From Phycisphaerales bacterium (GTDB taxonomy: Bacteria; Planctomycetota; Phycisphaerae; Phycisphaerales; SM1A02), in the NCBI GenBank assembly GCA_028278245.1, contig JANQEQ010000095.1:1-54518 (forward strand): 54,518 bases of DNA. The letters run 5' to 3'. Numbering within the stretch: the stretch's first letter is position 1; each line of letters starts with the position of its first letter. This document shows, in pieces, positions 1,160 through 45,033 of this stretch. The position numbers were made by a program, and so were the translations under genes. The notes below the pieces were generated by a model. The model had not been told where the DNA came from, made no database searches, and saw only the letters and a list, made by a program, of their open reading frames with translations.

Positions 1160-2347
1160 TCATTCAGATGATTGGATCCGTACAGTGATCAATTGCGCTT
1201 CACCTTTTACCGTGAATGTCATAAACGACTTCTGTTCGTTGTAGCTGGCCTTGAGCCGTAGCCTTTCTCCCAAAGGCAATATTGCAGTCAAGTGATCATT
1301 GGTATCGAAACGTTCATCCTTTGAAGTCCCTTCAAAGAGTGTGCTCCCCGTATCGTCTAACACAGATACAGCTGCATTGCACCGCTTCCCGGTTGTTTCG
1401 TTGATCACACGGAATCGCACTCTGGCCATATTTAGAGGCAGTTGCTCAATGTTCGTGGTATAGCGATCAGTAATATCGACGGCGTAGGTGGAGCGATCAG
1501 CAGGTTGCCAACTCATGGGGAAAGTTATTGGTGTTTTCCTCCAGGTAACTGCATAGATCGCATGTTCAGGATCACTTCGGTATGCCCGTGCTGCGCGGTC
1601 GGTAAACCAGGCTTGGTTAAGTTCATCTCCAGTGGGTTCAGCTGCACCAGTGAAGTGCCAACCATCATCCCAGATTTCCACCCACGAATGGTTGCCGCTG
1701 CCATCTACCCACAAAGGTGTTCCTACAAACCTTGCGGGTACACCAACTGAACGACAGGCATTGATCAGCAGTATTGACAAACCGGTACAGGAAGCAAATC
1801 CCGAGTCGATGCTCTCGTAGGGGCTTTGATCTGCTCTTGCACACTGGGCAGAGTATTTCACGTTGATTAATGAGTAAATCTTACGATTCAGTATTACGGC
1901 TGCCTCACTGGGCGTTTTTGCATCAGCTACCAGTGGTGTGAATTTTCGGTGAAATTCAGCACGCCAACGGTCACGGCGCTCACTTACATTGGCATACGGT
2001 AATACGGAATCCAGGAATATATCCTCCGGTATACGGTTACCCCAAGGCGTGGCAAAGAACGCTTTGTACGCCAGTTCACAATTCTCCAGCAAATACTCAG
2101 AATTCAACGATTGAAGATCACGGTCAGGCATATGTGTAATGAGCCAACACATGCCCTTACGTTGATCCTCGGGCACACGATTGAGAGCGTCCTCGATCTG
2201 ATCGCGGTTAGAACCTGCTCGTGCAAGCACCATCTCAATAGAATTGTCTTTGTCGTTGCCTTTTGAATCGCATCCTTCGTTCGCCATAACAGATTTGGCT
2301 TGAACCAGGATGAGCAGAGTCATCAGAATTATGAAACGATGACGCAT
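1160..2347 (-). CDS. Exported transglutaminase-like protein
   Basis: The 395-residue product starts with a hydrophobic signal sequence (about residues 4-21, likely cleavage after SVMA). The middle contains a transglutaminase/cysteine-protease-type core: Cys187 in ASCTGL, followed by His220 in NHSWVEIWDDGW and an acidic residue (Glu237) where an Asp is usual. The last 120 residues look like a beta-rich domain. Such bacterial proteins are usually peptidases or amidases rather than cross-linking enzymes; the substrate cannot be read from the sequence. It is the last gene of the eight-gene minus-strand run, 34 bases after the propeller-cytochrome gene, so it may process or mature an exported partner. 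GGGAG stands 9 bases before the ATG. Confidence 0.75.
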   Translation of the reverse strand: MRHRFIILMTLLILVQAKSVMANEGCDSKGNDKDNSIEMVLARAGSNRDQIEDALNRVPEDQRKGMCWLITHMPDRDLQSLNSEYLLENCELAYKAFFATPWGNRIPEDIFLDSVLPYANVSERRDRWRAEFHRKFTPLVADAKTPSEAAVILNRKIYSLINVKYSAQCARADQSPYESIDSGFASCTGLSILLINACRSVGVPARFVGTPLWVDGSGNHSWVEIWDDGWHFTGAAEPTGDELNQAWFTDRAARAYRSDPEHAIYAVTWRKTPITFPMSWQPADRSTYAVDITDRYTTNIEQLPLNMARVRFRVINETTGKRCNAAVSVLDDTGSTLFEGTSKDERFDTNDHLTAILPLGERLRLKASYNEQKSFMTFTVKGEAQLITVRIQSSE

Positions 2348-2381: not shown

Positions 2382-4193
2382 TTAGAGCGAAAGCAGGTAT
2401 TCGATGAGATCTTCCAATTCTGATTCGCTCAATGTACTGGTGCCACCGTGCCAAATTTGAGAATTATGCTCGATTAATAAGGAACGCAGATCCGGTGCGC
2501 GTCCATCATAGAGGTAGGGTGCTGTCCGCCACACCTCAATCAGTGTGGGGGTATCCATTGGACGCGCTTTATCCTGCCCCTTTCCCAAACCCAGGTCATA
2601 CTGTTTGAGATCAGTGAAGTATGGACCATTGTGACACTTGGAGCACTGTGCTTTGTGAAAAATGTCCCGGCCACGTTGTGCTGCCGGACTGAGTTCCCCA
2701 TCAACGAGGTAAGGACTTGAAATCGGTTTGAGTGATCTCAGGTACTCATCGATCGCCTCCAGATCCACTTCGGGCCGAGTTGCAAATTGAATATGCCGGA
2801 CTCCCGCGCGTACCGCAACCTCAGCGCTCGCGCGCACTCCCGTGATCATGGCGGGCGGAGTTTCGTGGGACAGCAGCAGGCTTTTCGTGTTCTTTGGATT
2901 GCCGAATCCGTCATTAAGGAGATCCCAGTTCAGCGCATCGGCTCGTACATCCGGGTGACAGCTTGAACAGCTTTGCCACTTCTGAAAACAGAGCCTCGCG
3001 TCGTGGAAGTAGATTTCGCCCAGTCTGACAGGATCAGGCTGGAGTGATGAACCCAAGGTTATGGTTTGTATAGATCGGTTTGGCGATTCGACATTCTGGG
3101 CATTCACGACGGAAATACTGTTCGAGAAATACTCCGTAACGACAACATCTTCCCCGGCAAACACCATCGACCTTGGACCATTCCCCGGCAACGCAATGCG
3201 TTCTCGAAATTCGGTAAGAAAAGACAGATCGTTACTTACGTCCATTCGTGCCTTATGATCCAGCTGATGGAGCTTGTTCATGAGAACAGGCAAGTTGATA
3301 AGGCTCACTTCGTGAGTCCCCGAATGTGTTACCGCAAGTACCTTCCCATCCCTGCTGCACGCCACGCCCCAGGGATTTGCTGCACCGAGGTCGATGTCGT
3401 CCAGGAGCACGGTCGCAAAATGGCACTGGTTCTTCACATCAATGATGCTCAGAGCATTGGTGTTCATCCACCCCCGAATCAGTTGAGTTGTGGGATTGTT
3501 GTATCGTGCAAGAATGTGAGTGCAAAATGCGTATTTTCCATCGTGAGAAAGGCAGATCTCACGTACCGATGTCGAACCGTTGGGCAGTTGAACGGTGGCT
3601 GTCACTGCCCGTTGCATGGTATCGACGAAAGTAATCTCCGCTGCGATTGTGCGTACATTTGCAGGACCACTTGGAAGATGCTGTGCCACAACTAATGTGC
3701 TGCCATCAGGAGTCAGTACCGCATCGATTGGTTCACGTCCAACCTTCACACTGCACATGATCTCTCCGGACAGGCAATCCAAGATCCGTATGAGATTCTC
3801 AAAACGGTTCAACACAAAGAGAAATTTCCCGTCAACTGACAACAACGGAGAACGAGGCATGTGCCCAGCGTTCATTGTCTGGAGCACTTTTCCGTTTGCA
3901 GTTTCGATGACATAAACTTCGCCTGCAGCAGAAAGGCTGGTCACGAAAAGCAAGCCATTTTGCAACATCAGATCACTTGCCGGCTGGGGCAGTGGGATCA
4001 TACGGACAACCTGGCCGGAGCTTGTGTCAAGCACCACAATCTGTGCTGTTTGGTCCTGTGCCACGTAGACAGTTTTCCCATCACGATCAACGATCAGTGC
4101 TGTTGGCGAGGGATAGACCATCTCACCTGCAGAACATGCTGCGTGAGTAAAAACGAAAATGTTAACAAGAAGGCTGAGCAATGAACGGATCAT
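2382..4193 (-). CDS. Beta-propeller plus dihaem cytochrome c peroxidase/MauG-like fusion (HzsBC-like plan)
   Basis: The protein (603 residues) has a signal peptide (LLSLLVNIFVFTHAACSA). A YVTN-type beta-propeller occupies about residues 25-370. It is followed by a dihaem module like cytochrome c peroxidase/MauG, with haem motifs CSSCH (about residue 408) and CSKCH (about 516). Typical peroxidase-family phrases LGEIYFHDARL and APYLYDGRAPDL are present. It should sit in the periplasm and carry out electron transfer or haem oxidation. I chose the ATG at 4193 because it overlaps the upstream stop as ATGA and puts the signal peptide at the N terminus; an ATG 33 codons further upstream lies inside the upstream gene. 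Hydrazine synthase of anammox bacteria has a beta-propeller subunit (HzsB) and a MauG-like dihaem subunit (HzsC), so the fusion recalls HzsBC. Planctomycetes also have many unrelated propeller-cytochrome proteins. Confidence 0.8.
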   Translation of the reverse strand: MIRSLLSLLVNIFVFTHAACSAGEMVYPSPTALIVDRDGKTVYVAQDQTAQIVVLDTSSGQVVRMIPLPQPASDLMLQNGLLFVTSLSAAGEVYVIETANGKVLQTMNAGHMPRSPLLSVDGKFLFVLNRFENLIRILDCLSGEIMCSVKVGREPIDAVLTPDGSTLVVAQHLPSGPANVRTIAAEITFVDTMQRAVTATVQLPNGSTSVREICLSHDGKYAFCTHILARYNNPTTQLIRGWMNTNALSIIDVKNQCHFATVLLDDIDLGAANPWGVACSRDGKVLAVTHSGTHEVSLINLPVLMNKLHQLDHKARMDVSNDLSFLTEFRERIALPGNGPRSMVFAGEDVVVTEYFSNSISVVNAQNVESPNRSIQTITLGSSLQPDPVRLGEIYFHDARLCFQKWQSCSSCHPDVRADALNWDLLNDGFGNPKNTKSLLLSHETPPAMITGVRASAEVAVRAGVRHIQFATRPEVDLEAIDEYLRSLKPISSPYLVDGELSPAAQRGRDIFHKAQCSKCHNGPYFTDLKQYDLGLGKGQDKARPMDTPTLIEVWRTAPYLYDGRAPDLRSLLIEHNSQIWHGGTSTLSESELEDLIEYLLSL

Positions 4194-7100
4194 GGAAACA
4201 CCACCACGCGAAATCCTACGTTGTAGACCGGTTGATACTGACGATATCCCCACCGCCACGAGGAGCGCGCTATTTTTGGACGATCTCGCCATGAACCCCC
4301 GCGCACAACCTTAATTTCCGAATCGGCTGATGCGCTATCCCCGCTTGCAGGCATATACGGATAGGATTTGTAATCGGATTTCGTCCATTCACACACGTTC
4401 CCGTGCATGTCGTGGAGTCCCCATGGATTTGGTGCATACTGACCGACATCGCACATGAGGCGTTCACCGTCATCATAGCGAGCATCCTTGGGCAGATAAT
4501 CCTGATACTCGTTGGGATTCTCGATCGGATGCGGATCAACGCCGGTGACTGCCAGTCGTTTCGTACTTACATCTGCCAGGTTTGCAAACATCGAAAAGTC
4601 CGTATCAAGGTCACCATAGAATAATGGTGAATCGGTCCCGGCACGGCATGCCCACTCCCACTGGGCTTCTGTCGGCAGCTCGCAACGTAATCCCGTTTCC
4701 TGAGATAGCCACTCGCAAAATGCGGTTGCCTGCTCCCATGTGATTCGGATCACGGGACGTTGAGGACCATGAGCCGGATAACCGGGTTTGGTGTGATCCT
4801 TATGTCGTTGATCGTGGTAACCGTTGAAGTGCGTAGGATCAAAGCGGCTGTACTGTTCACACGTTACTTCAACCGTTCCCATGTAGAACGGCTTATCAAT
4901 ATGCACAACTGAGCGTGGAGATTCATCTGGGTATCCACATGGTGATCCCATGATGAACTCACCAGTCGGGATGAGGACGAGATCAAGCGTTACGCTTTCG
5001 CCAAGGTCAAATTCAAGCTGTTCGGGCATATTCAGCGATGCTCGACGAGCCGTTGCTTCTTTCGCATCGAATGGCCACCCAGCTACCTCAAACGGGAATT
5101 CTTCGACCGGTTCCAACTCCATTGGTTCGATAAACAGCACCGGCTCATCATCCGTTACGACAATTTCTTCCGGGTCATCAGTTATCCCGGCATAGCGTGC
5201 CAGCATCTCGCAACGCCTTACGTGACCTTCGTGCGGTATCTTAGCGTGCTCACCCCATGTTCCGTGGTCCGGCACGTTCAAGTCTATCCATGTCACCAAT
5301 CGGTCCCATGCTTCGTCATCAAGATCTACACCATGATGACCTTTACGGAGGATTTGAATCAACTCACTTGAATCTGCGTGAAATTCCATTGGCCTGAGCA
5401 GGTGATAGTCACTTTCCGGCCCGGGGCGACGAACATAGGGATGAAGCGCAAGATAGGACGGGGTGAAGTTCCTCCAGCCATTCTCCTCTTTGCGAGAGAG
5501 ATCAGGCAAAGCCTGAGTATCACCGGTATCGGCGTGACAGCCTACGCAGAATTTGTCGAGTACGGGTTGCACTTCACGAACAAAACTGAAACCACGAGTC
5601 GGCCCGTACCAGGATTTAATTTCAGCCGGCGCTTGTCGTGCGGCAAGGGTAATATCCACGGGAGCGGCCACGTTCTGCGGCTCATGACAACCAATGCAGG
5701 ACAGCACCTCGCCGGGCATTGCGGTAAACCAACTCCGCATGAGTTGAATCGCTTTCCCTTCCGCATCCAGTGGCTGAATCGCAATGGGTGTATTCGCCGG
5801 GACTTTAAAGCACGCTGAACCATCCTCATATACCGGTACAGTTCCAAGCAGGCGATGTATATCCCATGGACCTTCCACACCCACATGCACATGGCCACCC
5901 ATGTTGTTGTAACCGTAATGGAATGAATACACGCGCAGCTGTTTTACTGTTCCATGAGGTACACCTTTCAATCCTGGACCTGCGTAGATATCAGCCAGGA
6001 ATATAGTGGCTTCCTTATCGGCCAGTCGTACCTTGTCTGGAATCACGGGCGGCTTGGGCGTCGCGCGCAGAGGAACAGGCTCCAGTAGAGCGCAATCAGG
6101 TTCTTCGGCAATGAGCACCATGTTGTCGAATATGTCAACCAGGTAGATACCCCAGAGCGCCTCTGGGGTAGGTTTGCACGAGACGAGGAAGTACTTTTCG
6201 CTCAGGGGATATGGATGTAGGAATCGTGGCCAGCTTTGATCAACCAGTTGATCCACGATCACCGGCTCTACCGGTTTGCCATACCCGGGGATGCGCTGCA
6301 CAACGCCATCCGCTTCAAATCGACCCAGCGCAGGATCGAAGAGAATCAGTTCACCCATACGTGGTACACCGTGATGACCTGACACTATCGCAATGGTCTG
6401 GGTAGGATGATTGGGAATCGGTCGAGCGTAGAAGATGGAATTTGGCCAATACGAGTTGCTGCCGTAGTATTCCATCTGCCCGGTACCATCGGGATTCATG
6501 TGTATGAGCAATCGTGTGAAGTAGTGGGGGGTATCTGAATACTCCCAGCGTGTGAACAACACGCGGCCGTTGTTAAGAACCGATGGGCACCAATTATGGT
6601 CCTGGTCGAAACATAACTGGCGAACAGAGTCGGTTTCCTCATCCATCAAATAGAGATTCGCAACTGCGTCAGCGCCACCAACACAAGGGATACCTTGAAA
6701 ACATCGGGTGGAGTCGAAGATAATTCTCCCATCAGGCAGGTAACATGCATCGTAATTATCAACGTCATCAAATTCACCCGGTGTGACCTGACGCAGGGCG
6801 TACTTGTTGATATCAAATTCAAATATCTGCCAGCGATCGTGCGTGCCAATCATGGAGAATAACAGGCGGTTGCCATCCCAGTGCAGATCGATATCAGCAA
6901 TCATTCGCGGCAGGTTGGGCGTGAAGATCGTTTTCTGTGAGGAATCCGGATTTGTCAGACCGAGCGTGCACAGCGAATCGTTATATCCCCGGCGAGGTAA
7001 TGAGCAGTTGCCCTGCCAGTTCTGGGGGAGACCAAGGCTGGGGCTGTCCGTACGACGCCTGATATAAAGAAGCTGGTCGAAATCAAGCAGGGGATTTGCG

Positions 7101-8209
7101 AGTAATGCCTCTCTGCAGAACGCTTCGATATTATCGAGTTCCTCGTTTGCTCGAATCGTCCGATCGTGATCACCGGACTCTAAATCGGCCCGAACTTCTG
7201 GCAGGCGCTGTTCCAATGCCATAAGGTTTGCCAAACGATCCGTTCCGTAGCGAGTTGGATATTGCTTCGTCAAATCTTCAACACACCGGCGCAGAGAGAC
7301 AAGACTGAGCTGGTCGATGCGGTCCAGGTTTTTACGAACAATGCATAATTCAACGTATAACTCAAGCCATCGCGGATCATCATCGGCTACGGAACCATCG
7401 CGCAATGTCTCAAATGCAGCGTACATTTTCCCGTGCGATATGCCTGTTTCTATGATCACCGATTGAACAAGTTTTAAACTGGTACCTTCGTACTTACCTC
7501 CACGGAACCAGTTCAGATGCTGACCATTGGGCAGATCATCCATCATGTGATCACATTCAATAGGAAATTGGTCAATTAACGGTTCCCACAATGCGACGAG
7601 TGGGTCTTTTCTGAGGAGGAAATAGAATCCGTGCCCGCCGGTGATATTGTAGATTTTCATCAGTAGGTGATTCTCACCCGGCATGAGGTTCAACGTTACC
7701 CGATCCTGGTCCGGTGCGACGCCGCGTGGCACATCGCGCGAGAACACATTTGTTCCATTCAGCCGGACTTCGATACCATCATCGCTGCCAAGGCTCGCGG
7801 TGAGTGATACGGATTCTGTTGTGTAAATTGACCGAAAGAGGTACGTTGCAGCGTGATCTTTTGAGGGAAGTTTATGGACTGCACCGTCAATCCACTCACT
7901 GCGTTCGGTCCACAGCGCCGCGCCTGATTTATCCTCTGCCGAAAGATCGACAGCCTCTATTGGAAAGTGTACATCCGTGAAATGTGGTGTAGGCAGCGGT
8001 GCGGTAGCGTACCATGGGCCAAGTTCAACGTCATCATCACGGCGCAGTTCCTGGAATTGTGCCCGTGATGCGAGCATGGTATCGGCCCAGGTTGCGCGTT
8101 TGATAAAATAAGGTGAACCAGATTGAGGAGTGGGCTGATTTGCGATAGTCTGATCAGCGATGGTAGATATCGCGGTTAAGATGAAGGGTAATAAAATTCT
8201 TATACCCAT
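4190..8209 (-). CDS. HzsA-related dihaem propeller protein with C-terminal SUMF1 domain
   Basis: The 1339-residue exported protein contains, in order, a signal peptide and a small beta-sandwich (about 60-200, GSDDGIEVRLNG ... GENHLLMKIY). A helical stretch follows (about 200-390). Next comes a TolB/WD-like propeller (about 420-760) and a region typical of HzsA-related proteins (GHVHVGVEGPWDIHRLLG, MRSWFTAMPGEVLSC). Two c-type haem sites follow (CIGCH about 838, CVGCH about 888). The SUMF1/FGE-like domain runs from about 1073 to the end (IPTGEFIMGSP, GNVCEWT, VVRGGSW, NVGFR). The SUMF1 part lacks the paired cysteines of aerobic formylglycine-generating enzymes, so it is probably not a sulfatase maturase. 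Start: ATG at 8209 with AAGGAG seven bases upstream and the signal peptide directly after it. The stop overlaps the next gene as ATGA, which suggests equimolar production of a complex. Confidence 0.8.
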   Translation of the reverse strand: MGIRILLPFILTAISTIADQTIANQPTPQSGSPYFIKRATWADTMLASRAQFQELRRDDDVELGPWYATAPLPTPHFTDVHFPIEAVDLSAEDKSGAALWTERSEWIDGAVHKLPSKDHAATYLFRSIYTTESVSLTASLGSDDGIEVRLNGTNVFSRDVPRGVAPDQDRVTLNLMPGENHLLMKIYNITGGHGFYFLLRKDPLVALWEPLIDQFPIECDHMMDDLPNGQHLNWFRGGKYEGTSLKLVQSVIIETGISHGKMYAAFETLRDGSVADDDPRWLELYVELCIVRKNLDRIDQLSLVSLRRCVEDLTKQYPTRYGTDRLANLMALEQRLPEVRADLESGDHDRTIRANEELDNIEAFCREALLANPLLDFDQLLYIRRRTDSPSLGLPQNWQGNCSLPRRGYNDSLCTLGLTNPDSSQKTIFTPNLPRMIADIDLHWDGNRLLFSMIGTHDRWQIFEFDINKYALRQVTPGEFDDVDNYDACYLPDGRIIFDSTRCFQGIPCVGGADAVANLYLMDEETDSVRQLCFDQDHNWCPSVLNNGRVLFTRWEYSDTPHYFTRLLIHMNPDGTGQMEYYGSNSYWPNSIFYARPIPNHPTQTIAIVSGHHGVPRMGELILFDPALGRFEADGVVQRIPGYGKPVEPVIVDQLVDQSWPRFLHPYPLSEKYFLVSCKPTPEALWGIYLVDIFDNMVLIAEEPDCALLEPVPLRATPKPPVIPDKVRLADKEATIFLADIYAGPGLKGVPHGTVKQLRVYSFHYGYNNMGGHVHVGVEGPWDIHRLLGTVPVYEDGSACFKVPANTPIAIQPLDAEGKAIQLMRSWFTAMPGEVLSCIGCHEPQNVAAPVDITLAARQAPAEIKSWYGPTRGFSFVREVQPVLDKFCVGCHADTGDTQALPDLSRKEENGWRNFTPSYLALHPYVRRPGPESDYHLLRPMEFHADSSELIQILRKGHHGVDLDDEAWDRLVTWIDLNVPDHGTWGEHAKIPHEGHVRRCEMLARYAGITDDPEEIVVTDDEPVLFIEPMELEPVEEFPFEVAGWPFDAKEATARRASLNMPEQLEFDLGESVTLDLVLIPTGEFIMGSPCGYPDESPRSVVHIDKPFYMGTVEVTCEQYSRFDPTHFNGYHDQRHKDHTKPGYPAHGPQRPVIRITWEQATAFCEWLSQETGLRCELPTEAQWEWACRAGTDSPLFYGDLDTDFSMFANLADVSTKRLAVTGVDPHPIENPNEYQDYLPKDARYDDGERLMCDVGQYAPNPWGLHDMHGNVCEWTKSDYKSYPYMPASGDSASADSEIKVVRGGSWRDRPKIARSSWRWGYRQYQPVYNVGFRVVVFP

Positions 8210-8275: not shown

Positions 8276-9154
8276 TCAGGTGTCCTTGAGATCGTTGTAC
8301 ATCTCGTAGGCAACGTCAACAGTCTGACTGTCATGGACGATGGCTCGAACAGCCTGGATCATTGCTTGTGGATGTTCTGCCTGAAAAATATTTCGCCCCA
8401 TATCAACACCCGCAGCCCCAAGGTCTATTGCTCGGTACGCCAGGTTCAGCGCATCCCGTTCGGGAATCTTCTTGCCTCCGGCAACCACAATCGGGACCGG
8501 ACAGCCAGCGGTGACCGTTTCAAATCCATCTTCACAATAGTAAGTCTTAACAACCTGAGCACCGTTTTCCGCAAGAACACGAGAAGCCATACCCAGGTAG
8601 CGTGCATCACGCGCCATATCACGACCAACCGCAGTCACACCAAGGGTGGGTACACCATATCGATAGCCGGTTTCAATCATGCGGCTGAGGTTGCGGATTG
8701 TTAAGGCTTCGTATTTTCCCCCGACCTCAACCATGACTGCCATCATTGAAGCGTTGAGTCTCAGGGCGTCCTCAATTTCGACGCCGATGCATTCATCATT
8801 GAGTTCCGTCAGTACCGTCGAACCGGCAGAGCACCGCAAAGCAATGGGCTTATTGTGAACGGGCGGTATGCAGCTGCGCAGAATGCCGCGTGTACACATG
8901 AGGCAATCGGCATGATTGACGAGCGGGAGGATGGAGAGATCAATACGCTCGAGGCCGGAGGTTGGACCCATGATGTAGCCATGATCAAACGCCAGCATAA
9001 CAGTGTGACCGGATGTCGGATTAAAGACCCGGGACAGCCTGTCCTTCATACCCCAGTCATAATTGTTTGAACCTTTCAGTTCATATACGGGATTACTTAC
9101 GGGGATGTCGATACCGAAGCTTGAGGCATCGATGTTACCAGTTGCTTCAGCCAT
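8276..9154 (-). CDS. LsrF/DhnA-family class I aldolase or thiolase
   Basis: A 292-residue (beta/alpha)8 enzyme. LAFDHGYIMGPTSGLE near residue 55 and the Schiff-base lysine context VVKTYYCED are those of LsrF (3-hydroxy-5-phosphonooxypentane-2,4-dione thiolase) and the DhnA class I fructose-bisphosphate aldolases. GVDMGRNIFQ near the C terminus is the phosphate-binding region. LsrF processes phosphorylated autoinducer-2, but here the gene follows DhaK and DhaL and there are no lsr transport genes. Cleavage of a phosphorylated ketose made by DhaKL is therefore more likely. The ATG at 9154 has GGAAGGA seven bases upstream and overlaps the end of dhaL by 8 bases; a longer in-frame extension into dhaL is rejected. 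Cytosolic. Confidence 0.75.
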   Translation of the reverse strand: MAEATGNIDASSFGIDIPVSNPVYELKGSNNYDWGMKDRLSRVFNPTSGHTVMLAFDHGYIMGPTSGLERIDLSILPLVNHADCLMCTRGILRSCIPPVHNKPIALRCSAGSTVLTELNDECIGVEIEDALRLNASMMAVMVEVGGKYEALTIRNLSRMIETGYRYGVPTLGVTAVGRDMARDARYLGMASRVLAENGAQVVKTYYCEDGFETVTAGCPVPIVVAGGKKIPERDALNLAYRAIDLGAAGVDMGRNIFQAEHPQAMIQAVRAIVHDSQTVDVAYEMYNDLKDT

Positions 9155-9788
9155 CAATAAATCCTTCCTTGAGCCCGGAAAAGATAATAGACATGGAGGC
9201 AGCGCCGGGATCGACATGTCCGATTGACCGCTCGCCGATATTTTTTGCTCGGCCAAAAGACGCCTGCATGTTTTTTGTTTGTTGAGCACCGTTTTCAGCG
9301 GCGTTCGCTGCGGAAATAAGGGTATCCTCTAATGATTTTTGTTCGTCAGCAGCCTTGCGCACGGCATCAATCGCGGGGCACAGAGCATCAATCATGGTCT
9401 TTCCGCCAGGTTGTGCATTCGTGTAGTTCCTCAGGTTTGACAAGCTATGCTCAATCATGACCGCGAATCCTGTAGTATCGAAGTCATCGCTGTTCGCGCA
9501 AGATTCGCTGAGACCGAGAAACCAGGATCCGTAGAGCGGCCCGGCTGAGCCTGAATCCGTACCCATAATCGACCATCCAATCGTTGAGAGTAGTGATTGA
9601 AGGTCATCGTTTGAGTTGCCATCAAGATGCTGAGCTATTGCATAGGCAATTTTACACATAGCGGTTCCGTGATCGCCATCGCCAGTTGCTGCATCAAGCG
9701 TGGAGAGTGTGTCCTTTGCTTCTCGTATTCTCCTGACCACGGCAGACAACATTCTGACCATGATGTCGTAATCAATTCGATCCGGCAC
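9147..9788 (-). CDS. dhaL: Dihydroxyacetone kinase subunit DhaL-like
   Basis: A 213-residue all-alpha nucleotide-binding subunit with the DhaL signature ATGDGDHGTAM (Mg-ADP/ATP-binding aspartates), GTDSGSAGPLYGSWF and GGKTMIDAL. It works with DhaK to phosphorylate dihydroxyacetone or a related short ketose such as erythrulose. No DhaM phosphotransfer protein is visible in the window, so ATP may be the direct donor. Start: a GTG at 9788 preceded by GAGGG gives the full N terminus; an ATG nine codons later is the alternative. The gene lies 16 bases after dhaK and overlaps the aldolase gene by 8 bases, so kinase and aldolase are probably made together. Confidence 0.85.
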   Translation of the reverse strand: MPDRIDYDIMVRMLSAVVRRIREAKDTLSTLDAATGDGDHGTAMCKIAYAIAQHLDGNSNDDLQSLLSTIGWSIMGTDSGSAGPLYGSWFLGLSESCANSDDFDTTGFAVMIEHSLSNLRNYTNAQPGGKTMIDALCPAIDAVRKAADEQKSLEDTLISAANAAENGAQQTKNMQASFGRAKNIGERSIGHVDPGAASMSIIFSGLKEGFIDG

Positions 9789-9804: not shown

Positions 9805-10806
9805 CTAGGTAACGACCCAGTATGGAGCTTTCGAAGGAGCTTTCAGCATTTGTAACAACTCGTCATCGAGCTTGGCAACAAACATCTGAAATCCAGCCAT
9901 CTCCTGGACGGTCAGGTATTCACCGACCTTGGCATGTACGATATTGATACGCTTTTCCACAGCGAGTTGCTTGAGTTTACGAAACACAATGAAAAGTTCC
10001 ATTTGTGTCGTTGCACCAGCGCCGTTGAGAATGACGAGAATTTGATCATCGCTTCCTGCGTTGACAGCGGCAAGAAGTTGAGTGAACATTTTTTCGGCCG
10101 TCTCATCCGCCGAAAGCATCTTGGAATGTCCGGTACCGGCTTCGCCGTGCTGTCCCATGCCAATTTCCATCTCGTCGTCGGCAAGGGTGAAGATTTCCTG
10201 GCCGGACTGAGGATGGGTTGCAGGCTTCAGGGCTACGGCAAGAGTTGCCATATTCTCATTGAACCTATTTGCAATATCGTATACCTCATCAAGGGTTTTT
10301 CCCGCTTCGGCTGCTGCCCCGGCAACTTTGTAAAGAGGTAAACAACCGACCAAGCCTCGGCGGTCTTCTGCTGGAGCATCCGCCCCGGGAGCGATGTCCT
10401 CGTGGGTTATGAGCATCCGGACGTTGAGTCCTTCCTTTTCCGCCATTTGCATGGCAGCTTTGGCGCTTAAAATGTCACCGGCATGATTCAGTACCACAAA
10501 AAGAACACCAACATCGCGATGGTGGAGACGCAGTGCTTCGATCACCTTGGGAGGACCGGGAGCAGCGAAGATGTCACCGACGACTGATGCGTCCAACATG
10601 CCAGGGCCGACGAATCCACTCAACGCCGGTTCGTGTCCAGCTCCCCCCAATGTGACAAGGGCAACCTTGCTATTGTCCTTGGGCTCTGCTCTGAGAACGA
10701 TTTTTTCAGAGACTAGCTTTACGCGATCGGGGAATGCTGCGCAATAACCCTCGAGAAGTTCAGTAGTCAGATTGTCAGGATCATTGATGAATTTCTTCAT
10801 CGTCAT
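9805..10806 (-). CDS. dhaK: Dihydroxyacetone kinase subunit DhaK-like
   Basis: A 333-residue DhaK-type subunit that binds the ketose substrate covalently. It shows GGAGHEPALSGFVGPGMLD near residue 54, LNHAGDIL with the catalytic Asp near 107, and EMEIGMGQHGEAG, in which the His near residue 219 corresponds to the hemiaminal-forming histidine of DhaK. All key positions are therefore present. Together with the adjacent DhaL it makes a two-subunit kinase. In the family, substrates include dihydroxyacetone and D- or L-erythrulose, and sequence alone does not decide between them. The ATG at 10806 has AGGGAG eight bases upstream. It is preceded by a VOC gene (30-base gap) and followed by dhaL. Confidence 0.85.
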   Translation of the reverse strand: MTMKKFINDPDNLTTELLEGYCAAFPDRVKLVSEKIVLRAEPKDNSKVALVTLGGAGHEPALSGFVGPGMLDASVVGDIFAAPGPPKVIEALRLHHRDVGVLFVVLNHAGDILSAKAAMQMAEKEGLNVRMLITHEDIAPGADAPAEDRRGLVGCLPLYKVAGAAAEAGKTLDEVYDIANRFNENMATLAVALKPATHPQSGQEIFTLADDEMEIGMGQHGEAGTGHSKMLSADETAEKMFTQLLAAVNAGSDDQILVILNGAGATTQMELFIVFRKLKQLAVEKRINIVHAKVGEYLTVQEMAGFQMFVAKLDDELLQMLKAPSKAPYWVVT

Positions 10807-10836: not shown

Positions 10837-11151
10837 CTATGCCATTTGCATCAACTCAATCGGTGCCCCTTCTTCAATGACGAAGGCGACAGTAACACCC
10901 TCAAGAGGGGAAAACGGCTCAAGGAGTATGTTCGCTCCTTCCATTTCGAGTTGAAGATTATCAACCGTGTATGCAATGTGTGGGATCGTCTTGAGCATAT
11001 CGGGCATTGGGCAGTCAGATTCAAAACGAAGCCACTCGATCTTGTTTGGACTGGCCTGAGGATCCGTTATGAACAACCGGGCTTCTTCGAGATACGTTTC
11101 ATTCTCGTGGGATTGATCAGAAGGGATACCAAAGTGATGAAAAGTACGCAT
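10837..11151 (-). CDS. Small VOC (glyoxalase-like) family protein
   Basis: A 104-residue protein with the two-repeat layout of a vicinal-oxygen-chelate domain: HHFGIP near the start, IEWLRFE, PHIAYTVDNL at the middle and PIELMQ at the end. His and Glu residues at domain-typical positions could bind a metal ion. It has no export signal. Genes of this kind next to sugar isomerases and aldolases could be epimerases, isomerases or detoxifiers of dicarbonyl by-products; I cannot choose between these. It lies between the exported cupin isomerase-like gene and dhaK in one transcription unit. Confidence 0.6.
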   Translation of the reverse strand: MRTFHHFGIPSDQSHENETYLEEARLFITDPQASPNKIEWLRFESDCPMPDMLKTIPHIAYTVDNLQLEMEGANILLEPFSPLEGVTVAFVIEEGAPIELMQMA

Positions 11152-11178: not shown

Positions 11179-11865
11179 TCAAAAGACTACCGTTTTATTC
11201 GTAAACTCTAATGCATCGGCATAGTGCGGTGTGCCATACTCGGTGACGATAGCGCCCTCAGGACCAGCGATCATGAAGTGGGGGGCGGTAATACGGTTCA
11301 GCGTACCGATTTCACCATCTTTGAGTGTTTTGCAACAGCGGACAGTGATGGCTTTAGCCTTGAGTTGACTCTCGGGCAATTTGCAGGGGAGATCTTTGGT
11401 TGGCTCGCCCTCACCGAAGGTATGGATCATGCCGTAGCGAACGTGCCACGATTCCATCTTCGCCGGTCCTTCAGAACTGACGTTGTGACGATGCTCGACG
11501 ATCATCTGTCCCGGCAGGAGGTAGATCTCATGCGCGAAATAGCGGTGCTCTTTGTTGTTCATCCAGAAGATCCCAGCCATGCCAACATTGATGAAATCAT
11601 TCTGAGCGAAGTCGCTGGTCCAAAACTCATCTGTTTTCAAGATAGATGGAATCGGGTAACCGAAGCGTTTCATCATTGCGTAGTAAGCGTCAAATGCCTT
11701 CTGCTTGTTGAAGACACCGTTATCGTAAAAATCGCTATTTTGCATGCTACCTTTCCTCTCTTTACCCAGAGACTGACCCATTGCGTTACCGGTTGCCAGT
11801 GTGATTCCCACCGCGGTCACCGATTGAATGGCGGCACGTCTCGTTATCAGGTGATTTTTCTGCAT
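11179..11865 (-). CDS. TAT-exported cupin-fold protein related to D-lyxose isomerase
   Basis: The 228-residue protein opens with a twin-arginine-type signal (TRRAAIQSVTAVGITLATG). The core is a cupin with a metal-site pattern VEHRHNVSSEGPAKMESWHVRYG, then TAPHFMIAGPEGAIVTEYGTPH. This resembles the D-lyxose ketol-isomerase family; the match is by eye and moderate. An exported sugar isomerase would be unusual, since the known enzymes act in the cytosol. It is the first gene of the eight-gene minus-strand run and has an excellent ribosome site (GGAGG close to the ATG at 11865). The operon's promoter should lie in the 266-base divergent region upstream. Confidence 0.6.
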   Translation of the reverse strand: MQKNHLITRRAAIQSVTAVGITLATGNAMGQSLGKERKGSMQNSDFYDNGVFNKQKAFDAYYAMMKRFGYPIPSILKTDEFWTSDFAQNDFINVGMAGIFWMNNKEHRYFAHEIYLLPGQMIVEHRHNVSSEGPAKMESWHVRYGMIHTFGEGEPTKDLPCKLPESQLKAKAITVRCCKTLKDGEIGTLNRITAPHFMIAGPEGAIVTEYGTPHYADALEFTNKTVVF

Positions 11866-12131: not shown

Positions 12132-13871
12132 ATGAGTCGAAGTCGGAAGAGGCTGGTCAGTATTTTAGTGTTCGTGTTGATGGGCGCTCTGGTCGAATAT
12201 GCACCTGCGTCATCACGGATTAGTACAGATAATGAGCACGGAATTGATACACACATCCGAGTGCTTCTGATAAGTGGTGCCAGCAACCATGACTGGGTAT
12301 CAACAACTCCCTATCTAAAACGGATTTTTGAAGACACGGGACGCTTCGCTGTCGACGTGCTGGAAGAGACGCATTCGATAACTGCGCAGTTACTGGATAA
12401 TTATGATGTCATTGTGAGTGATTTCAATACATTCACCTCGCGGAATAAGGCTCCGCGAGATCCAGGGTGGTCTGATGAGACCAGGCGGGCATACATCGAA
12501 TTTGTACGACGTGGCGGCGGTCATGTTGTCGTGCATGCTGGATCATCTTCATTTTACGATTGGAAGGAATACCAGGATCTGGTGATCAGTAGCTTTATTG
12601 TGGGCAAGACAGATCATGGCACTCGACACACGTTTCCCGTTGTGCTGAGCGAGGTAGACAACCCGATCACTGAAGGCATGGAGCCCTTCGAAACGTTTGA
12701 TGAACTGTGGCACAATGCACCGGTAGACAGTAAGGCCACTGTTCTGGCATCAGCATACTCGTCAACGGAATCCCGAGGCAGTGACCGGTATGAACCAGTC
12801 GCGATGGTGAAACAATACGGTGAGGGGCGGAGTTTCACGCTCATTTTGGGGCATGACACGAAGTCGATGAGCAACGTTGCACTTCAATCCCTGCTGGTCC
12901 GTGGAACGGAATGGGCTGCCACCGGTGAGGTGACGCTTCCGTTACCGATCGAGTGGCCGAGTATTGAATTGTCGGAGTTGCCGGAGGCCGATGAGTCACT
13001 GCGGTTTTTCAGTGAAGACGATACATTTGCGCTGGCTGACGGGGTAGATGTCATCTGGCAATTCAATCACGGACCCGATTCGGGCAAGCCGTATTTCCAT
13101 CCTCTGTCAATTCCTGCAGGCCCTACACTGACCTGGAAGAATCCTCCTGATCATCCCTGGCACTATGGTCTGTGGTTCAGTTGGAAATACATCAACCAAC
13201 TTAACTTTTGGGAAGAAGACCGTAAGACCGGACGCAGTGAAGGAAGTACAACGTGGTCCAATGTGCGCATCAAGAAGTATTCAGATCATACAGCGCAGAT
13301 CGAAATGGATGTGTCGTATGGCGTTGAGCACGACCAGCTTTTACTTACGGAATATCGAGTAATTGAAGTCTCTGCGCCAGCAGATGACGGGAGTTATTAT
13401 CTCGACTGGTCGATGCAATTCACTGCTCAAAGTGATATTGTTCTCGACCGCACACCATTGCCGGACGAGATTGGCGGAAAAGTTTATGGCGGCTATGCTG
13501 GTCTTTCAGCACGGCTAGCCTCTCAACTTGTTGAACGACGTGTGATTCTCAGTGAGGGAATGGTTTCTTTTCAAAATGATCGACATCGATCTCGCGCTCG
13601 GGCAGTAGAATATAGTGGCCTCATCTCGGGGAAGCCGGTGGGAATTACAATTGTGGCCCATCCGGATAACCTGAATGCGCCATCACCCTGGTATGTGATT
13701 CAAAGTGATGTGATGAGTTTCTTCAGCCCGGCAGTACTTTGTTACGGGCCGCATCAGATGGCTGCAGGTGAAAGTGTAATACTGCGATACCGCGTTATTG
13801 TGCATCCTGATCGATGGGATGCGGAGCGGTTAAGTACGGAATATGAAAGATATATTGGCAATCGAAAGTGA
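12132..13871 (+). CDS. Exported ThuA domain fused to DUF6807 (PmoA-like) domain
   Basis: The 579-residue protein has an N-terminal hydrophobic signal. Residues about 45-275 form a ThuA-like domain (VLLISGASNHDW, VVVHAGSSSFYDW, WHNAPVD). Residues about 310-575 form a DUF6807/PmoA-like domain (SIPAGPTLTWKNPPDHPWHYGLWFSW is split across its start, ending in ILRYRVIVHPDRWD). ThuA of rhizobia takes part in handling 3-keto-trehalose, and ThuA proteins often accompany Gfo/Idh oxidoreductases in PVC genomes. The reaction of the DUF6807 part is not known to me. AGGAGG stands six bases before the ATG at 12132. The next gene, an exported Gfo/Idh enzyme, starts 7 bases after the stop, so the two are co-expressed. 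The despite-its-name PmoA label has nothing to do with methane monooxygenase. Confidence 0.75.
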   Translation: MSRSRKRLVSILVFVLMGALVEYAPASSRISTDNEHGIDTHIRVLLISGASNHDWVSTTPYLKRIFEDTGRFAVDVLEETHSITAQLLDNYDVIVSDFNTFTSRNKAPRDPGWSDETRRAYIEFVRRGGGHVVVHAGSSSFYDWKEYQDLVISSFIVGKTDHGTRHTFPVVLSEVDNPITEGMEPFETFDELWHNAPVDSKATVLASAYSSTESRGSDRYEPVAMVKQYGEGRSFTLILGHDTKSMSNVALQSLLVRGTEWAATGEVTLPLPIEWPSIELSELPEADESLRFFSEDDTFALADGVDVIWQFNHGPDSGKPYFHPLSIPAGPTLTWKNPPDHPWHYGLWFSWKYINQLNFWEEDRKTGRSEGSTTWSNVRIKKYSDHTAQIEMDVSYGVEHDQLLLTEYRVIEVSAPADDGSYYLDWSMQFTAQSDIVLDRTPLPDEIGGKVYGGYAGLSARLASQLVERRVILSEGMVSFQNDRHRSRARAVEYSGLISGKPVGITIVAHPDNLNAPSPWYVIQSDVMSFFSPAVLCYGPHQMAAGESVILRYRVIVHPDRWDAERLSTEYERYIGNRK

Positions 13872-13878
13872 GGAAACG

Positions 13879-15231
13879 ATGAATGATATGAACACCAGCA
13901 GGAGAGATTTTCTCAAAACAACTGCTGCGGTAAGTGGCGCAATCGCTTTTCCAACAATCGTACCGTCTACGGTATTCGGTGCTGGTGCACCGTCCAATCG
14001 TATCAACATCGCCAGTTTGGGAGTTGGATCCCGGGGGAACGGAGTACTGAGTGATTTTATGCGACGGCATGATGACGTTCACGCGGTGGCGGTCTGTGAT
14101 CCATTCAGATCACGACAAATAAGAACGAAAGCGGCGGTGGATGAATACTACGGTAACACCGATTGTGCTGCGTACGAAAGACATGAAGAAGTACTGGCGC
14201 GCGACGATATTGATGCGGTGCTCATCTGTTCCAGCGATCACTGGCATGTTCATTTGGCAGCGGCGGCAGTACGTGCGGGCAAAGATGTCTATGTTGAAAA
14301 ACCACTCTGTCCGAGCATGGCCTGGTCGTGGAAATTGAGAGAACTTGTCGAACAGAAGAGCGCGGTGTTTCAGTACGGTACACAACAACGTTCAAATCCA
14401 ACCTTCCGCAAGGTGTGTGATCTTGTTCGCAACGGATATATCGGTGATGTCCAGCGAGTCGATGTCTGGTGTCCCGACGCATCGGACGATTGGGAATTCT
14501 TTTCTGTTAAACGCTACGGATCGACTGAGACTCAGCCGATTCCCAGGGATCTTGACTACGAACGCTGGACTGGTCCTGCTCCGATGAAACCTTACAACGA
14601 TGATCGTGTAAGGAGGGAGGGATCATTCCATATCTACGATTATTCGATTGGTTTTCTGGCAGGCTGGGGTGCTCATCCTCTTGATTTTGCGCAGTGGGGC
14701 ATGGATATGGATCATACCAGTCCAGTTTACTATGAAGGCACTGGTACTTTACCTGCGAAAGGATTGCTCAATACCGTTGAAGAATGGGATATCCATTGCA
14801 TGTACTCCAACGGTGTGAAGATGCACTTCATGTCGTACCGGTTGGCGAAAGACGAAGTTATGAAATATCGCCAACGCTGGTCGAACCACGGCACAACATT
14901 TTTTGGTTCCGAAGGTTGGATCAGTGTGGATCGGGGAGGGATCGAATACAGTAATTCCAGTCTCGCTGAAGTTAAGCTCGGACCAAATGATAAACCTGTA
15001 TATCAAAGTCCTGCTCATGACCGTAACTTTCTCGATTGTGTAAAAGATAGAAAAGTTACAATCAGCCCCCTCGAAGCGGCAATACGGTCTGATACGATCA
15101 GTCATCTTTCAGATATCTGCGTAAGATTGAATCGACCGATCAAGTGGGATCCTGAGAGCGAGAAAATTGTTGGTGATGATGAAGCAACCAGTATGCTGAA
15201 ACGTAAAATGAGAGAACCCTGGCGTATGTAG
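13879..15231 (+). CDS. TAT-exported Gfo/Idh/MocA oxidoreductase (first copy)
   Basis: A 450-residue protein with a classical twin-arginine leader (SRRDFLKTTAAVSGAIAF). A Rossmann domain follows (INIASLGVGSRGNG) with the family signature VYVEKPLCPS, and then the alpha/beta C-terminal domain. Export by TAT fits a protein that folds with its NAD(P) cofactor already bound. Family members oxidise or reduce sugars, often at C3, or cleave glycosides by an oxidation-elimination route. The ATG at 13879 is preferred: GAGG lies just upstream and the RR motif is close to the N terminus, whereas an ATG 12 codons earlier would overlap the ThuA gene. It is coupled tightly to that gene. Confidence 0.85.
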   Translation: MNDMNTSRRDFLKTTAAVSGAIAFPTIVPSTVFGAGAPSNRINIASLGVGSRGNGVLSDFMRRHDDVHAVAVCDPFRSRQIRTKAAVDEYYGNTDCAAYERHEEVLARDDIDAVLICSSDHWHVHLAAAAVRAGKDVYVEKPLCPSMAWSWKLRELVEQKSAVFQYGTQQRSNPTFRKVCDLVRNGYIGDVQRVDVWCPDASDDWEFFSVKRYGSTETQPIPRDLDYERWTGPAPMKPYNDDRVRREGSFHIYDYSIGFLAGWGAHPLDFAQWGMDMDHTSPVYYEGTGTLPAKGLLNTVEEWDIHCMYSNGVKMHFMSYRLAKDEVMKYRQRWSNHGTTFFGSEGWISVDRGGIEYSNSSLAEVKLGPNDKPVYQSPAHDRNFLDCVKDRKVTISPLEAAIRSDTISHLSDICVRLNRPIKWDPESEKIVGDDEATSMLKRKMREPWRM

Positions 15232-15544
15232 CGGTCTATGCCAAACAACTGAATTCCATAATATTTTATGATTGACGATAGTTTCAGGATAGCAGTTTAT
15301 TTGCTTTGTCGACTGTGTAACCTTCGTGCTGTTCCCTCCGCTTATCGACCAATGCAGTTTGAGGCTGTTTGGGCATTCTCACCTTGGTCAAGATCTTTAC
15401 CCAGCAGTATCTTCTTCTTGCCAAATAAATTAGTGCTGTCATACCACATTGCTTAAAATCTTATCCGAACCGAAATCGGTGTGAGGTAGTGACATTTAGC
15501 GATATACTGCACGATTATACTTCTCAGTTTCGAGTGGAGATGTC
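15232..15544. other. Non-coding gap of 313 bases
   Basis: No convincing gene or terminator is seen. Two motifs recur in the gap before the second Gfo/Idh gene: GGCATTCTCACCTTGGT near 15372-15388 and TAGTGACATTT at 15487-15497. A short palindrome ACCGA-AA-TCGGT lies at 15469-15480. The gap probably holds the promoter of the esterase gene, but no standard -35/-10 pair is clear. Confidence 0.4.
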
Positions 15545-17542: not shown

Positions 17543-17630
17543 TTTTGCCTCTCAAAGCATGATCCTCCATAAATGAATATACTCTATCGAAAACCTGCGC
17601 TATGTGATGAGGAACTGCTCCATATCATGC

Positions 17631-17705
17631 AGGCATATTCACCTTGGTTTGATTTTGTATCGTTCAAATTTAGAAATGATAGATTCGGTATAGTTAGTCA
17701 CATTT
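17631..17705 (+). promoter_or_regulatory. Upstream motif pair shared with the esterase gene
   Basis: AGGCATATTCACCTTGGT at 17631-17648 matches 15371-15388 at 15 of 18 positions. TAGTCACATTT at 17695-17705 matches TAGTGACATTT at 15487-15497 at 10 of 11. Order and strand are the same in both gaps, only the spacing differs. A common activator site or promoter element is possible. Confidence 0.35.
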
Positions 17706-17724
17706 TTATGATAGTAGATTTACG

Positions 17725-19035
17725 ATGAACAGAAAATATTCCATCTCTCGTCGTCGATTCGTAAAAAACACAATCCAGGCTACTATGGCAGCTCCGTTCA
17801 TTTTGCCGGCAGCAGTGCGCGATACGATGGGCATGCGTCGAGTTGAACCCAGCAATCGTATTACCATGGGTCTTATCGGTTGCGGCGGTATGGGAAGGGC
17901 AAACCTGCATGGTTTTCTACAGATGAATGATGTGCAGGTGTTGGCCGTTTGCGATCCCGATGTCGTCCAGCGAGATGCTGCAAAAAAGCAGGTCGAAGAA
18001 CATTACGCCGAGCAATCATCGAATGGTTCGTATGTCGGCTGCGATTCCTATAACGATTTTCGTGATTTACTTGCTCGAGATGACATTGATGCAATTATCC
18101 AGGCAACACCGGATCATTGGCATGCTCTGATTGTGACCAACGCTGCTCAAGCAGGAAAAGATATTTATGGTGAGAAGCCGTTGAGCCTTACGATAAAACA
18201 GGGTCGCGTCATGAGTGATGCGGTTCGTGGGTACGGTAGGGTGTTTCAAACGGGGAGCCAGCAGCGCAGCAGCGAACAGTTTCGGTTTGCCTGCGAACTC
18301 GTCCGTAATGGCCGAATTGGAAAAGTACACAAGGTGACCTGTGGATTGCCGACTACACCAACGACGGGAGAGAAACCACCAATTCCTGTCCCAGATGGTT
18401 TCGACTACAACCTTTGGCTGGGACCGGCTCCGTGGGCTCCCTATTGTGAAGGCCGTACCCATTGGACTTTTCGTTGGATTCTCGATTACAGTGGTGGGCA
18501 AGTCACTGATTGGGGCGCTCACCATATCGATATCGCGCACTGGGGATTGGGATTAACACGCACTGGCCCAGTTGAAGTCGAAGGAAAGGGTGAATTCCCG
18601 AAAACAGGTCTTTGGAACACCGCCACCAATTATAAGTTCACCTGTCGATACTCATCCGGCGTAGAGATTTTTGTGACGAATGATTACGAAAATGGTGTCA
18701 AGTGGGAGGGGGAGGATGGTTGGGTATTTGTTAATCGAGGTCGCATAGAGGCACATCCTCAATCCCTGCTTGAAGAAGTTGTACATCCGAGTGAAATACA
18801 CTTGCCTCGATCACCTGGACATCGACGTGATTTTCTGAATTGTGTAAGATCGAGGACTGAACCAATTGCACCCATTGAGGAAGCACATCGAACAATTTCC
18901 GTAGCACATCTGGGGAATATTGCGATGCAATTGGGACGTAAGATTCGCTGGGATCCGAACAGAGAACAATTCATAAACGATTTACAAGCTGATCGTATGC
19001 GAGATCGTGCCATGCGTGAACCATGGAGTTTATGA
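17725..19035 (+). CDS. TAT-exported Gfo/Idh/MocA oxidoreductase (second copy)
   Basis: A 436-residue protein with a twin-arginine leader (ISRRRFVKNTIQATMAAPF), a nucleotide-binding loop MGLIGCGGMGRAN and the family signature IYGEKPLSLT. The C-terminal half contains GGQVTDWGAHHIDIAHWG, which matches the WGAHPLDFAQWG region of the first copy, where the conserved His is a likely catalytic residue. The two proteins share layout but differ clearly, so they probably act on different sugars or bonds rather than being recent duplicates. A periplasmic location is expected. No strong Shine-Dalgarno sequence precedes the ATG. A ThuA-HEAT gene follows after 59 bases. Confidence 0.85.
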   Translation: MNRKYSISRRRFVKNTIQATMAAPFILPAAVRDTMGMRRVEPSNRITMGLIGCGGMGRANLHGFLQMNDVQVLAVCDPDVVQRDAAKKQVEEHYAEQSSNGSYVGCDSYNDFRDLLARDDIDAIIQATPDHWHALIVTNAAQAGKDIYGEKPLSLTIKQGRVMSDAVRGYGRVFQTGSQQRSSEQFRFACELVRNGRIGKVHKVTCGLPTTPTTGEKPPIPVPDGFDYNLWLGPAPWAPYCEGRTHWTFRWILDYSGGQVTDWGAHHIDIAHWGLGLTRTGPVEVEGKGEFPKTGLWNTATNYKFTCRYSSGVEIFVTNDYENGVKWEGEDGWVFVNRGRIEAHPQSLLEEVVHPSEIHLPRSPGHRRDFLNCVRSRTEPIAPIEEAHRTISVAHLGNIAMQLGRKIRWDPNREQFINDLQADRMRDRAMREPWSL

Positions 19036-19094
19036 TCACTTCGTGCGCAGTACGTACGTTTCGTATATGACATCAATCCTGTAAGGTTAGATTT

Positions 19095-45028: not shown

Positions 45029-45033
45029 TTATC

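Follow-up and report, generated by a model that had tools for sequence, protein, structure and literature searches.

A pair of adjacent genes from a Phycisphaerales bacterium encodes relatives of all three subunits of hydrazine synthase, the hallmark enzyme of anammox bacteria, and carries four haem motifs. The pair lacks residues of the hydrazine synthase active sites and stands in a cluster of sugar-type genes that recurs beside homologous genes in other genomes. We interpret it as a predicted periplasmic complex that would supply the pathway of its operon by oxidising a sugar-derived compound, a reading to which we give a probability of about 0.45. Both genes belong to the 54,518-nucleotide stretch that was analysed as a whole (the window), and all features located below are on its minus (-) strand.

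A gene pair related to HzsA, HzsB and HzsC

The HzsA-like gene (4190..8209, ATG at 8209) encodes a protein of 1339 aa whose hydrophobic N-terminus resembles a signal peptide, as judged by eye. Its HZS_alpha middle domain (PF18582, 5681..5953) scores 111 bits against a cut-off of 26.6 and is the sole match to this model found in the genome. The first haem site, CIGCH followed by EPQN (5684..5698), is equivalent to alpha-I of HzsA, and the second, CVGCH (5534..5548), to alpha-II. Structure comparison gave 5c2v_A as the best fold, the predicted structure matching solved HzsA over 555 residues, a likeness that exceeds a generic propeller; sequence comparison with the same chain gave a profile E-value of 8.4e-11 and an hhalign probability of 99.3. 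The exported-looking, HzsA-related protein with two CxxCH motifs described in the first-pass annotation is thus borne out.

The next gene (2382..4193, 603 aa) is joined to it by an ATGA overlap. Residues 27-364 (3102..4115) form an HzsB-type propeller, matched to 5c2v_B by sequence and also best by fold. Residues 384-602 (2388..3044) form an HzsC-type di-haem domain, recognised by sequence only (5c2v_C, E 1.4e-21, hhalign 99.9), with haem sites CSSCH (2955..2969) and CSKCH (2631..2645) equivalent to gamma-I and gamma-II. A CCP_MauG domain is also detected in this protein (38.9 bits, cut-off 25.6). The fusion of a beta-propeller to a di-haem MauG-like module, read earlier from the letters, is confirmed by the matches to 5c2v_B, 5c2v_C and CCP_MauG.

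Residues of both hydrazine synthase active sites are replaced. The place of Tyr591, the alpha-I haem ligand of HzsA, is occupied by Asn in the window's protein, as the earlier reading of the letters had it. Asn occurs there in 113 of the 120 listed relatives and Tyr in none (0/120), whereas all 26 HzsA proteins scoring over the curated cut-off have Tyr (26/26). The place of gamma-His144 is Ile450 in the fusion protein, and neither His nor Trp is found there in any of the 118 readable rows of the 120 relatives; the predicted structure has a pLDDT <50 in this gamma-I distal loop. The place of gamma-Cys165, which provides the third thioether in hydrazine synthase, is Gly464 in one alignment and a gap in a second (hhalign) alignment, and a conserved Cys looked for at this place in alignment A2 was not found. 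In hydrazine synthase, zinc is held by alpha-His587 and Cys303. Other positions are kept: a Glu directly after the first haem site of the HzsA-like proteins, a His near the second haems of both the HzsA-like and the fusion proteins, and, in the window's fusion protein, the gamma-II distal His (residue 582). Scores against the curated NCBIfam hydrazine synthase models fall short of their cut-offs (34.7 vs 800 bits and 149 vs 1250 bits). With these low family scores and with Tyr591, gamma-His144 and gamma-Cys165 absent, a strict hydrazine synthase was rejected. The changed active-site residues make another substrate likely. The earlier proposal of a same-plan complex with a different substrate holds as to the HzsA/B/C parts, the four CxxCH motifs and the changed residues; its suggestion of an amine found no support.

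The HzsA-like protein ends in a SUMF1/FGE-like tail (PF03781, 4202..4984), whose nearest solved fold is PvdO. The tail had been put forward as a novelty of this genome; this was rejected, since it is present in 119 of the 120 listed relatives, the window's own protein included. The segment contains no Cys, and so lacks the Cys pair of the copper site of formylglycine-generating enzyme at what we take to be its place in the tail. Among the 102 readable tails of the 120 listed relatives, 93 have no Cys and nine have one. The window holds four sulfatases. A role of the tail as formylglycine-generating enzyme for these was rejected, the Cys pair being absent.

A recurrent cluster of sugar-type genes

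Alongside the pair, in a predicted operon that is new, lie genes for an LsrF-type aldolase/thiolase, the kinase subunits DhaL and DhaK, a VOC protein and a cupin. The LsrF-type class I aldolase/thiolase (8276..9154, overlapping DhaL by 8 bases) scores 449.7 bits against a curated LsrF cut-off of 297, and LsrF residues Asp57, His58, Lys203, Asp251 and Arg254 are all kept, with identical numbering, in 17/17 LsrF-type proteins. Next come the kinase subunits DhaL (9147..9788) and DhaK (9805..10806); His220 of DhaK, which we take to be the substrate-binding His, is conserved in 15/15. A small VOC (glyoxalase-like) protein of 104 aa (10837..11151) has an invariant His/Glu/His/Glu set. The cupin (11179..11865) is related to D-lyxose ketol-isomerase (7nzo, E 4.2e-12), and its His125, His127, Glu138 and His196, presumably the metal ligands of the isomerase cupin, are invariant in 15 sequences. 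Its N-terminus is Tat-like by eye; Tat-, Sec- or lipoprotein-like N-termini were likewise seen by eye in 20/20 loci, in some of them upstream of the start chosen by the gene caller. On the other side of the pair, 34 bp downstream and on the same strand, a transglutaminase-like gene (1160..2347) is perhaps cotranscribed with it; no match to this gene was found among 80 related loci. No transporter for the proposed sugar was identified.

The recurrence of this arrangement was surveyed in 80 genome loci with an HzsA-like gene, taking cupin, DhaK, DhaL and LsrF as module genes. At least two of them flank the HzsA-like gene in 18/80 loci, which belong to four phyla as named in the records and are spread over four distinct positions of the HzsA-like tree. 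The other 62/80 loci do not reach two module genes, and the fusion gene is likewise missing from 62/80, many of these being on short contigs; among the 32 loci with enough flank, the module is present in only 8 and the fusion in 10. LsrF occurs in 16/80 loci, on the same strand in all, with a chance expectation of ~0.3 loci per gene copy per 4 Mb. A chance neighbourhood of the pair and the sugar genes was rejected on the strength of these counts. The phylum yielded 33 cupin matches; the stretches around the 19 weak ones (71-88 bits), used as controls, are free of module genes and of HzsA-like matches reaching 60 bits. Ten neighbour genes from seven module-less loci gave mixed Pfam matches, and only genes of the GFO/IDH/MocA type were more widely recurrent, 22 of them in 17/80 loci.

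The pairing of the two genes also recurs among the 80 loci and is not confined to this genome. Of the points first claimed as new, the pairing is already in print in the main texts of PMC10732223 and PMC12758564, and a SUMF1 tail is usual in the family. This leaves the sugar operon as the new point, and its recurrence elsewhere makes it the better supported one.

Proposed function and alternative readings

With residues of both hydrazine synthase active sites missing and a sugar cluster alongside, the pair likely oxidises a sugar-derived compound and does not make hydrazine. We consider it likely to be a periplasmic four-haem oxidoreductase, as predicted from its parts, that supplies a carbonyl compound of sugar origin to a route resembling autoinducer-2 degradation. 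Both proteins would be exported, the substrate site would lie at the first haem of the HzsA-like subunit, and the haems of the HzsC-like part would pass electrons on to a soluble cytochrome c. After oxidation, the exported-looking cupin may rearrange the product, which would then enter the cell and be phosphorylated by DhaK-DhaL. A second rearrangement, by the VOC protein, would precede cleavage by the LsrF-type enzyme, giving dihydroxyacetone phosphate and a two-carbon unit. Points against this reading are the many loci that lack the module or the fusion gene, the contigs on which module and pair genes occur apart, the low pLDDT of the gamma-I distal loop, the lack of an identified sugar transporter, and the cytochrome c assembly protein PF01578, which was not found in this 88.8% complete genome.

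The alternative that survives best, which we nevertheless hold to be unlikely, is an extracellular electron-transfer or binding module without substrate chemistry of its own, its propellers and SUMF1 tail binding glycans or partners. Six-coordinate haems would fit the Met directly before the gamma-His144 place (117/118 readable rows of 120) and the conserved His of the second haems, and the tail lacks the FGE-type Cys pair. However, the HzsA-like core is highly conserved for a scaffold, with 69% mean column identity in an alignment of ten rows (alignment A3 of HzsA-like loci was built with nine loci), and the Glu directly after the first haem site is conserved as well.

It is rather improbable that the pair and the sugar genes adjoin only through shared regulation or horizontal transfer, the pair serving general respiration or detoxification. 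The genes are sporadic in the lineage, HZS_alpha being found in 4/101 genomes including this one, and they also occur apart: on two contigs (L154 and L155) the cupin-kinase-LsrF module stands without either pair gene over 5 to 9 kb beyond the module, and one contig (L153) has the fusion gene without an HzsA-like gene. Against this stands a linkage that is repeated in four phyla as named in the records, nearly always on one strand and in differing gene orders.

We think it doubtful that the HzsC-like part acts in the manner of MauG, modifying a residue of its HzsA-like partner, for example in the SUMF1 tail, so that the mature HzsA-like protein is the enzyme. The over-cut-off CCP_MauG match, the gene overlap here, the pairing elsewhere and the PvdO-like tail (the NCBIfam model of PvdO bears the name dihydropyoverdine dehydrogenase) are in its favour. 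The distal Trp, a feature of cytochrome c peroxidase and MauG according to the main text of PMC12758564, is nevertheless absent from the corresponding stretch in 113/113 readable rows of 120, and none of the genes scanned was seen to encode a quinone-cofactor protein. It is very improbable that the organism is a hidden anammox bacterium and the pair its overlooked hydrazine synthase or N-N bond enzyme: the subunit plan with four haem motifs and an octahaem HAO-like protein in the genome would suit it, but the three active-site residues and the family scores speak against it, as do the sugar-type neighbours and the presence of COX1, and the main text of PMC12758564 likewise dismisses such a role for the homologues it describes.

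We thus retain a predicted periplasmic oxidase of a sugar-derived compound. A bolder version, for which the odds are low, is a widespread sister of hydrazine synthase acting as a four-haem periplasmic carbohydrate oxidase; it would convert 1-deoxyketoses or related sugars to autoinducer-2-like dicarbonyls, which the Dak-type kinase, VOC isomerase and LsrF would turn into dihydroxyacetone phosphate and acetyl-CoA. If this were true, the anammox enzyme would have arisen from sugar catabolism via a few residue swaps in the haem pocket. The recurrent operon provides a pathway context for non-anammox relatives of hydrazine synthase, for which we know of none earlier. It points to a testable class of substrates, sugar-derived and LsrF-cleavable, and is a place to seek the ancestral chemistry of anammox.

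Comparison with known systems

The pair resembles hydrazine synthase HzsABC (5c2v) in its HzsA, HzsB and HzsC parts, recognised by sequence or fold, in its two plus two CxxCH motifs and in a candidate distal His at the second haem of each subunit. It differs in the Asn that replaces the alpha-I Tyr ligand, in lacking gamma-His144 and gamma-Cys165, in CxxCH spacing (50 here vs 102), in the fusion of B and C, as in Scalindua, and in the SUMF1 tail and sugar-type operon. The tail itself is PvdO-like, without the Cys pair of the formylglycine-generating enzyme copper site.

A non-anammox HzsA-like gene paired with a fused HzsB-HzsC-like gene was published by Suarez 2023 (PMC10732223; UBA1845), whose main text puts forward a broad family of enzymes acting on other substrates. 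The main text of Hagglund 2025 (PMC12758564) gives the same alpha plus fused beta-gamma pairing for clades I-IV and traces the origin of hydrazine synthase to haem proteins that already existed. These homologues share with the window's pair the pairing, the fused beta-gamma and the absence of Tyr591. Clades I-III are described there as having Trp in the position of gamma-His144 and a neighbouring FG-GAP gene; in contrast, the window's group lacks this Trp, and an FG-GAP gene was not seen next to the pair in the window. Clade IV may include the window's group. SUMF1, aldolase, dihydroxyacetone and isomerase are not mentioned in the main texts of PMC10732223 and PMC12758564. We recognised no description of an HzsA/LsrF or DhaK/LsrF/lyxose-isomerase cluster in the literature searched, which did not extend to preprints or most subscription papers.

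The operon is also similar to the LsrK-LsrG-LsrF system of autoinducer-2 degradation: the gene for an LsrF-type enzyme with its catalytic residues kept lies beside a kinase gene and a gene for a small isomerase-like protein. It differs in that LuxS was not found in this genome, a Dak-type kinase stands for LsrK, a VOC protein and a cupin stand for LsrG, and haem proteins are added.

The predicted operon and its recurrence around HzsA-like genes

Seven minus-strand genes run in series from 11865 to 2382; neighbours either overlap slightly or are no more than 66 bases apart, and from this spacing we infer a single operon. They encode a cupin (11179–11865), a VOC protein of 104 aa (10837–11151), DhaK (9805–10806), DhaL (9147–9788), an LsrF-type aldolase (8276–9154), the HzsA-like protein (4190–8209) and the fused HzsB-HzsC-like protein (2382–4193). 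The ATGA overlap reported between the last two genes is present in the sequence. A transglutaminase-like gene (1160–2347, minus strand) lies 34 bases after the fusion gene. HZS_alpha and the fusion each have one match in the window's genome, a 3.28-Mb assembly that is 88.8% complete; HzsA exceeds the curated cut-off in 27 genomes of the phylum sample, which points to Planctomycetota as the phylum. The HzsA-like protein begins with 200 residues (7598–8209) that lie outside the HzsA match and are apparently missing from shorter relatives; their GSDDG motif does not vary among 20 relatives.

Gene neighbourhoods were surveyed at the best 80 of 223 confirmed HzsA-like genome loci. In this set, at the thresholds applied, the fusion gene occurs at 18 loci, always on the same strand as the HzsA-like gene (15 downstream, 3 upstream), at least two of the cupin, DhaK, DhaL and LsrF genes (hereafter the module) occur at 18, and module and fusion occur together at nine. 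The same strand is used by LsrF at all 16 loci that have it, by DhaK in 13 of 14 cases and by DhaL in 16 of 17. On a simple length ratio, each gene copy per 4 Mb would be expected by chance at about 0.3 loci. Of the 32 loci in which the HzsA-like gene is preceded by at least 4.5 kb and followed by at least 2.5 kb, eight have the module, ten the fusion and seven both. The 18 module loci are labelled by record title as Planctomycetota, Hydrogenedentota, Verrucomicrobia and, in one case, Nitrospiraceae; they come from metagenome bins, which may contain mis-binned contigs. When 81 HzsA-like proteins were placed on a quick tree (SH-aLRT support, no bootstrap), 15 of the 19 module-bearing sequences, including that of the window, fell within one clade of 33 (SH-aLRT 99). 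The other four occupy three further places and have different gene orders; the linkage therefore seems to have arisen or moved on more than one occasion. The sugar operon, put forward as a new point in the first-pass annotation, thus recurs, and this recurrent LsrF-type operon is the new finding.

Two further genes recur downstream of the fusion in the same 80 loci: one (10 loci) encodes a chorismatase/RidA-like protein with FkbO/Hyg5-chorismatase and RidA-type matches, the other (7 loci) a small propeller-like protein, about 300 aa long, that looks exported. Examples of these downstream genes, on stretches of surveyed genomes, are L041:15755–16873, L043:15974–17101 and L046:17377–18273; neither gene is present in the window. 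Four or five HzsA-like genes are clustered in single loci at G080:C1:4591831–4599250 and on stretches L088 and L106.

The module and its surroundings

A search starting from the cupin covered 392 genomes of the phylum and gave 33 matches in 27 of these; 14 matches, from eight genomes, were strong. The eight strongest stretches, including the window and the L041 contig, all contain DhaK and DhaL, and seven contain LsrF. Four have an HzsA-like or fusion gene, and the contig of another stops there. Since L154 and L155, also among these eight, have a full or near-full module and 5 to 9 kb more contig with neither gene, the module can occur without the haem pair. On L153 (G364:C514:1–13000), DhaK, DhaL, LsrF and cupin genes are followed by the fusion gene, and no HzsA-like match was found on that stretch. 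Six weaker cupin matches (175–225 bits), mostly on short contigs, lack the kinase and LsrF genes, one having an HzsA-like match; the stretches of the other 19 have no module gene and no HzsA-like match of at least 60 bits.

A second carbohydrate region adjoins the operon at 12132–35002, with ThuA, GFO/IDH/MocA, SASA esterase, xylose-isomerase-like and FGGY kinase genes (12132–26008), after which come four genes for sulfatases and one for a PhoD-like phosphatase (26078–35002). Two asparagine synthase/GATase genes, ATP-grasp-type and methyltransferase-type proteins and several proteins lacking a Pfam match are found at 36853–53468. Elsewhere in the window's genome, stretch L183 (G000:C92:52500–59500) encodes an octahaem HAO-like protein with eight CxxCH (2528–4123, minus strand), adjoining a frame with four CxxCH and two more frames; neither a PF01578 cytochrome c assembly match nor LuxS was found in that genome.

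Haem-site residues and relation to known homologues

According to two papers on hydrazine synthase (PMC12758564, PMC12607021), Tyr591 holds haem alpha-I, His587 binds zinc, His772 is the distal ligand of alpha-II, and gamma-I has a third cysteine bond (Cys165) with His144 close by. The window protein has Asn at the Tyr591 place, as first noticed. HzsA has Tyr there in 26 of 26 sequences, and the 120 relatives listed, window included, have Asn (113), Ser (5) or Gly (2); the 81 genome copies, again with the window, have Asn (69), Ser (8) or others (4). A [KQR]GH motif, aligned at or adjoining the His772 place, is found in 117 of the 120 listed relatives, 62–68 residues from the haem site versus 83 in HzsA, which has His at that distance in 25 of 26 sequences. 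At the His144 place, readable by pattern in 118 of 120 listed fusions, Ile, Val, Ser, Met, Ala, Gly, Asn or Gln occurs and never His or Trp; Met directly precedes it in 117 of the 118, and Trp is absent from the whole stretch in all 113 readable rows of the 120. In the window fusion the Cys165 place is Gly464 in one alignment and a gap in another, the Asp168 place is His467, and the gamma-II His332 place is kept in the alignment, its pattern being found in 115 of the 120 listed rows. On this residue comparison, both hydrazine-synthase active sites lack named residues, and each subunit appears to keep its second haem. Cys402 of the fusion (2988–2990), seven residues ahead of the first CxxCH (LCFQxWQSCxSCH), is nearly invariant in alignments of 24 and 72 rows. 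We are aware of no equivalent cysteine in hydrazine synthase.

Relatives number at least 5379 and at least 7584 from about 8000 candidates scored per search, and true totals are likely higher. Two features proposed as new proved otherwise: the SUMF1 tail is present in 119 of the 120 HzsA-like rows listed, and the gene pairing is already described in Suarez 2023 (PMC10732223) and Hagglund 2025 (PMC12758564). The latter describes four clades in which the alpha gene lies together with a fused beta-gamma gene, clades I–III having Trp at the His144 place. The window's group, in contrast, lacks this Trp and, judged by that feature, belongs to none of clades I, II and III as described there; it may fall in clade IV. 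The pair adds a new variant to a group of hydrazine-synthase relatives that is already known, though unexplained.

Comparison with the autoinducer-2 route

The LsrF-type enzyme matches E. coli LsrF with 375 bits. The VOC protein, linked weakly by a PDB match (E 2e-4) to glyoxalase-I-like proteins, carries an invariant His/Glu/His/Glu set, presumably metal-related. The cupin is a relative of D-lyxose isomerase; because its N-termini look export-like by eye in 20 of 20 loci, one isomerase-like step may take place beyond the cytoplasm, alongside the haem pair. The oxidative role of the pair, its electron direction and its substrate are putative. LuxS was not found in the window's genome; as far as its 88.8% complete assembly allows, the compound of the pathway is therefore more likely a food molecule than a signal made by the cell itself. 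Asp57, His58, Lys203, Tyr205, Asp251 and Arg254 of the LsrF-type enzyme are kept in 17 of 17 sequences, whereas the comparison aldolases in PMC2728841 have Ser or Ala at the Asp251 place. In the autoinducer-2 route, as outlined in PMC8016206, phosphorylation by LsrK and isomerisation by LsrG precede LsrF, which yields dihydroxyacetone phosphate and acetyl-CoA; the window cluster has instead a Dak-type kinase and the VOC protein in the places of LsrK and LsrG.
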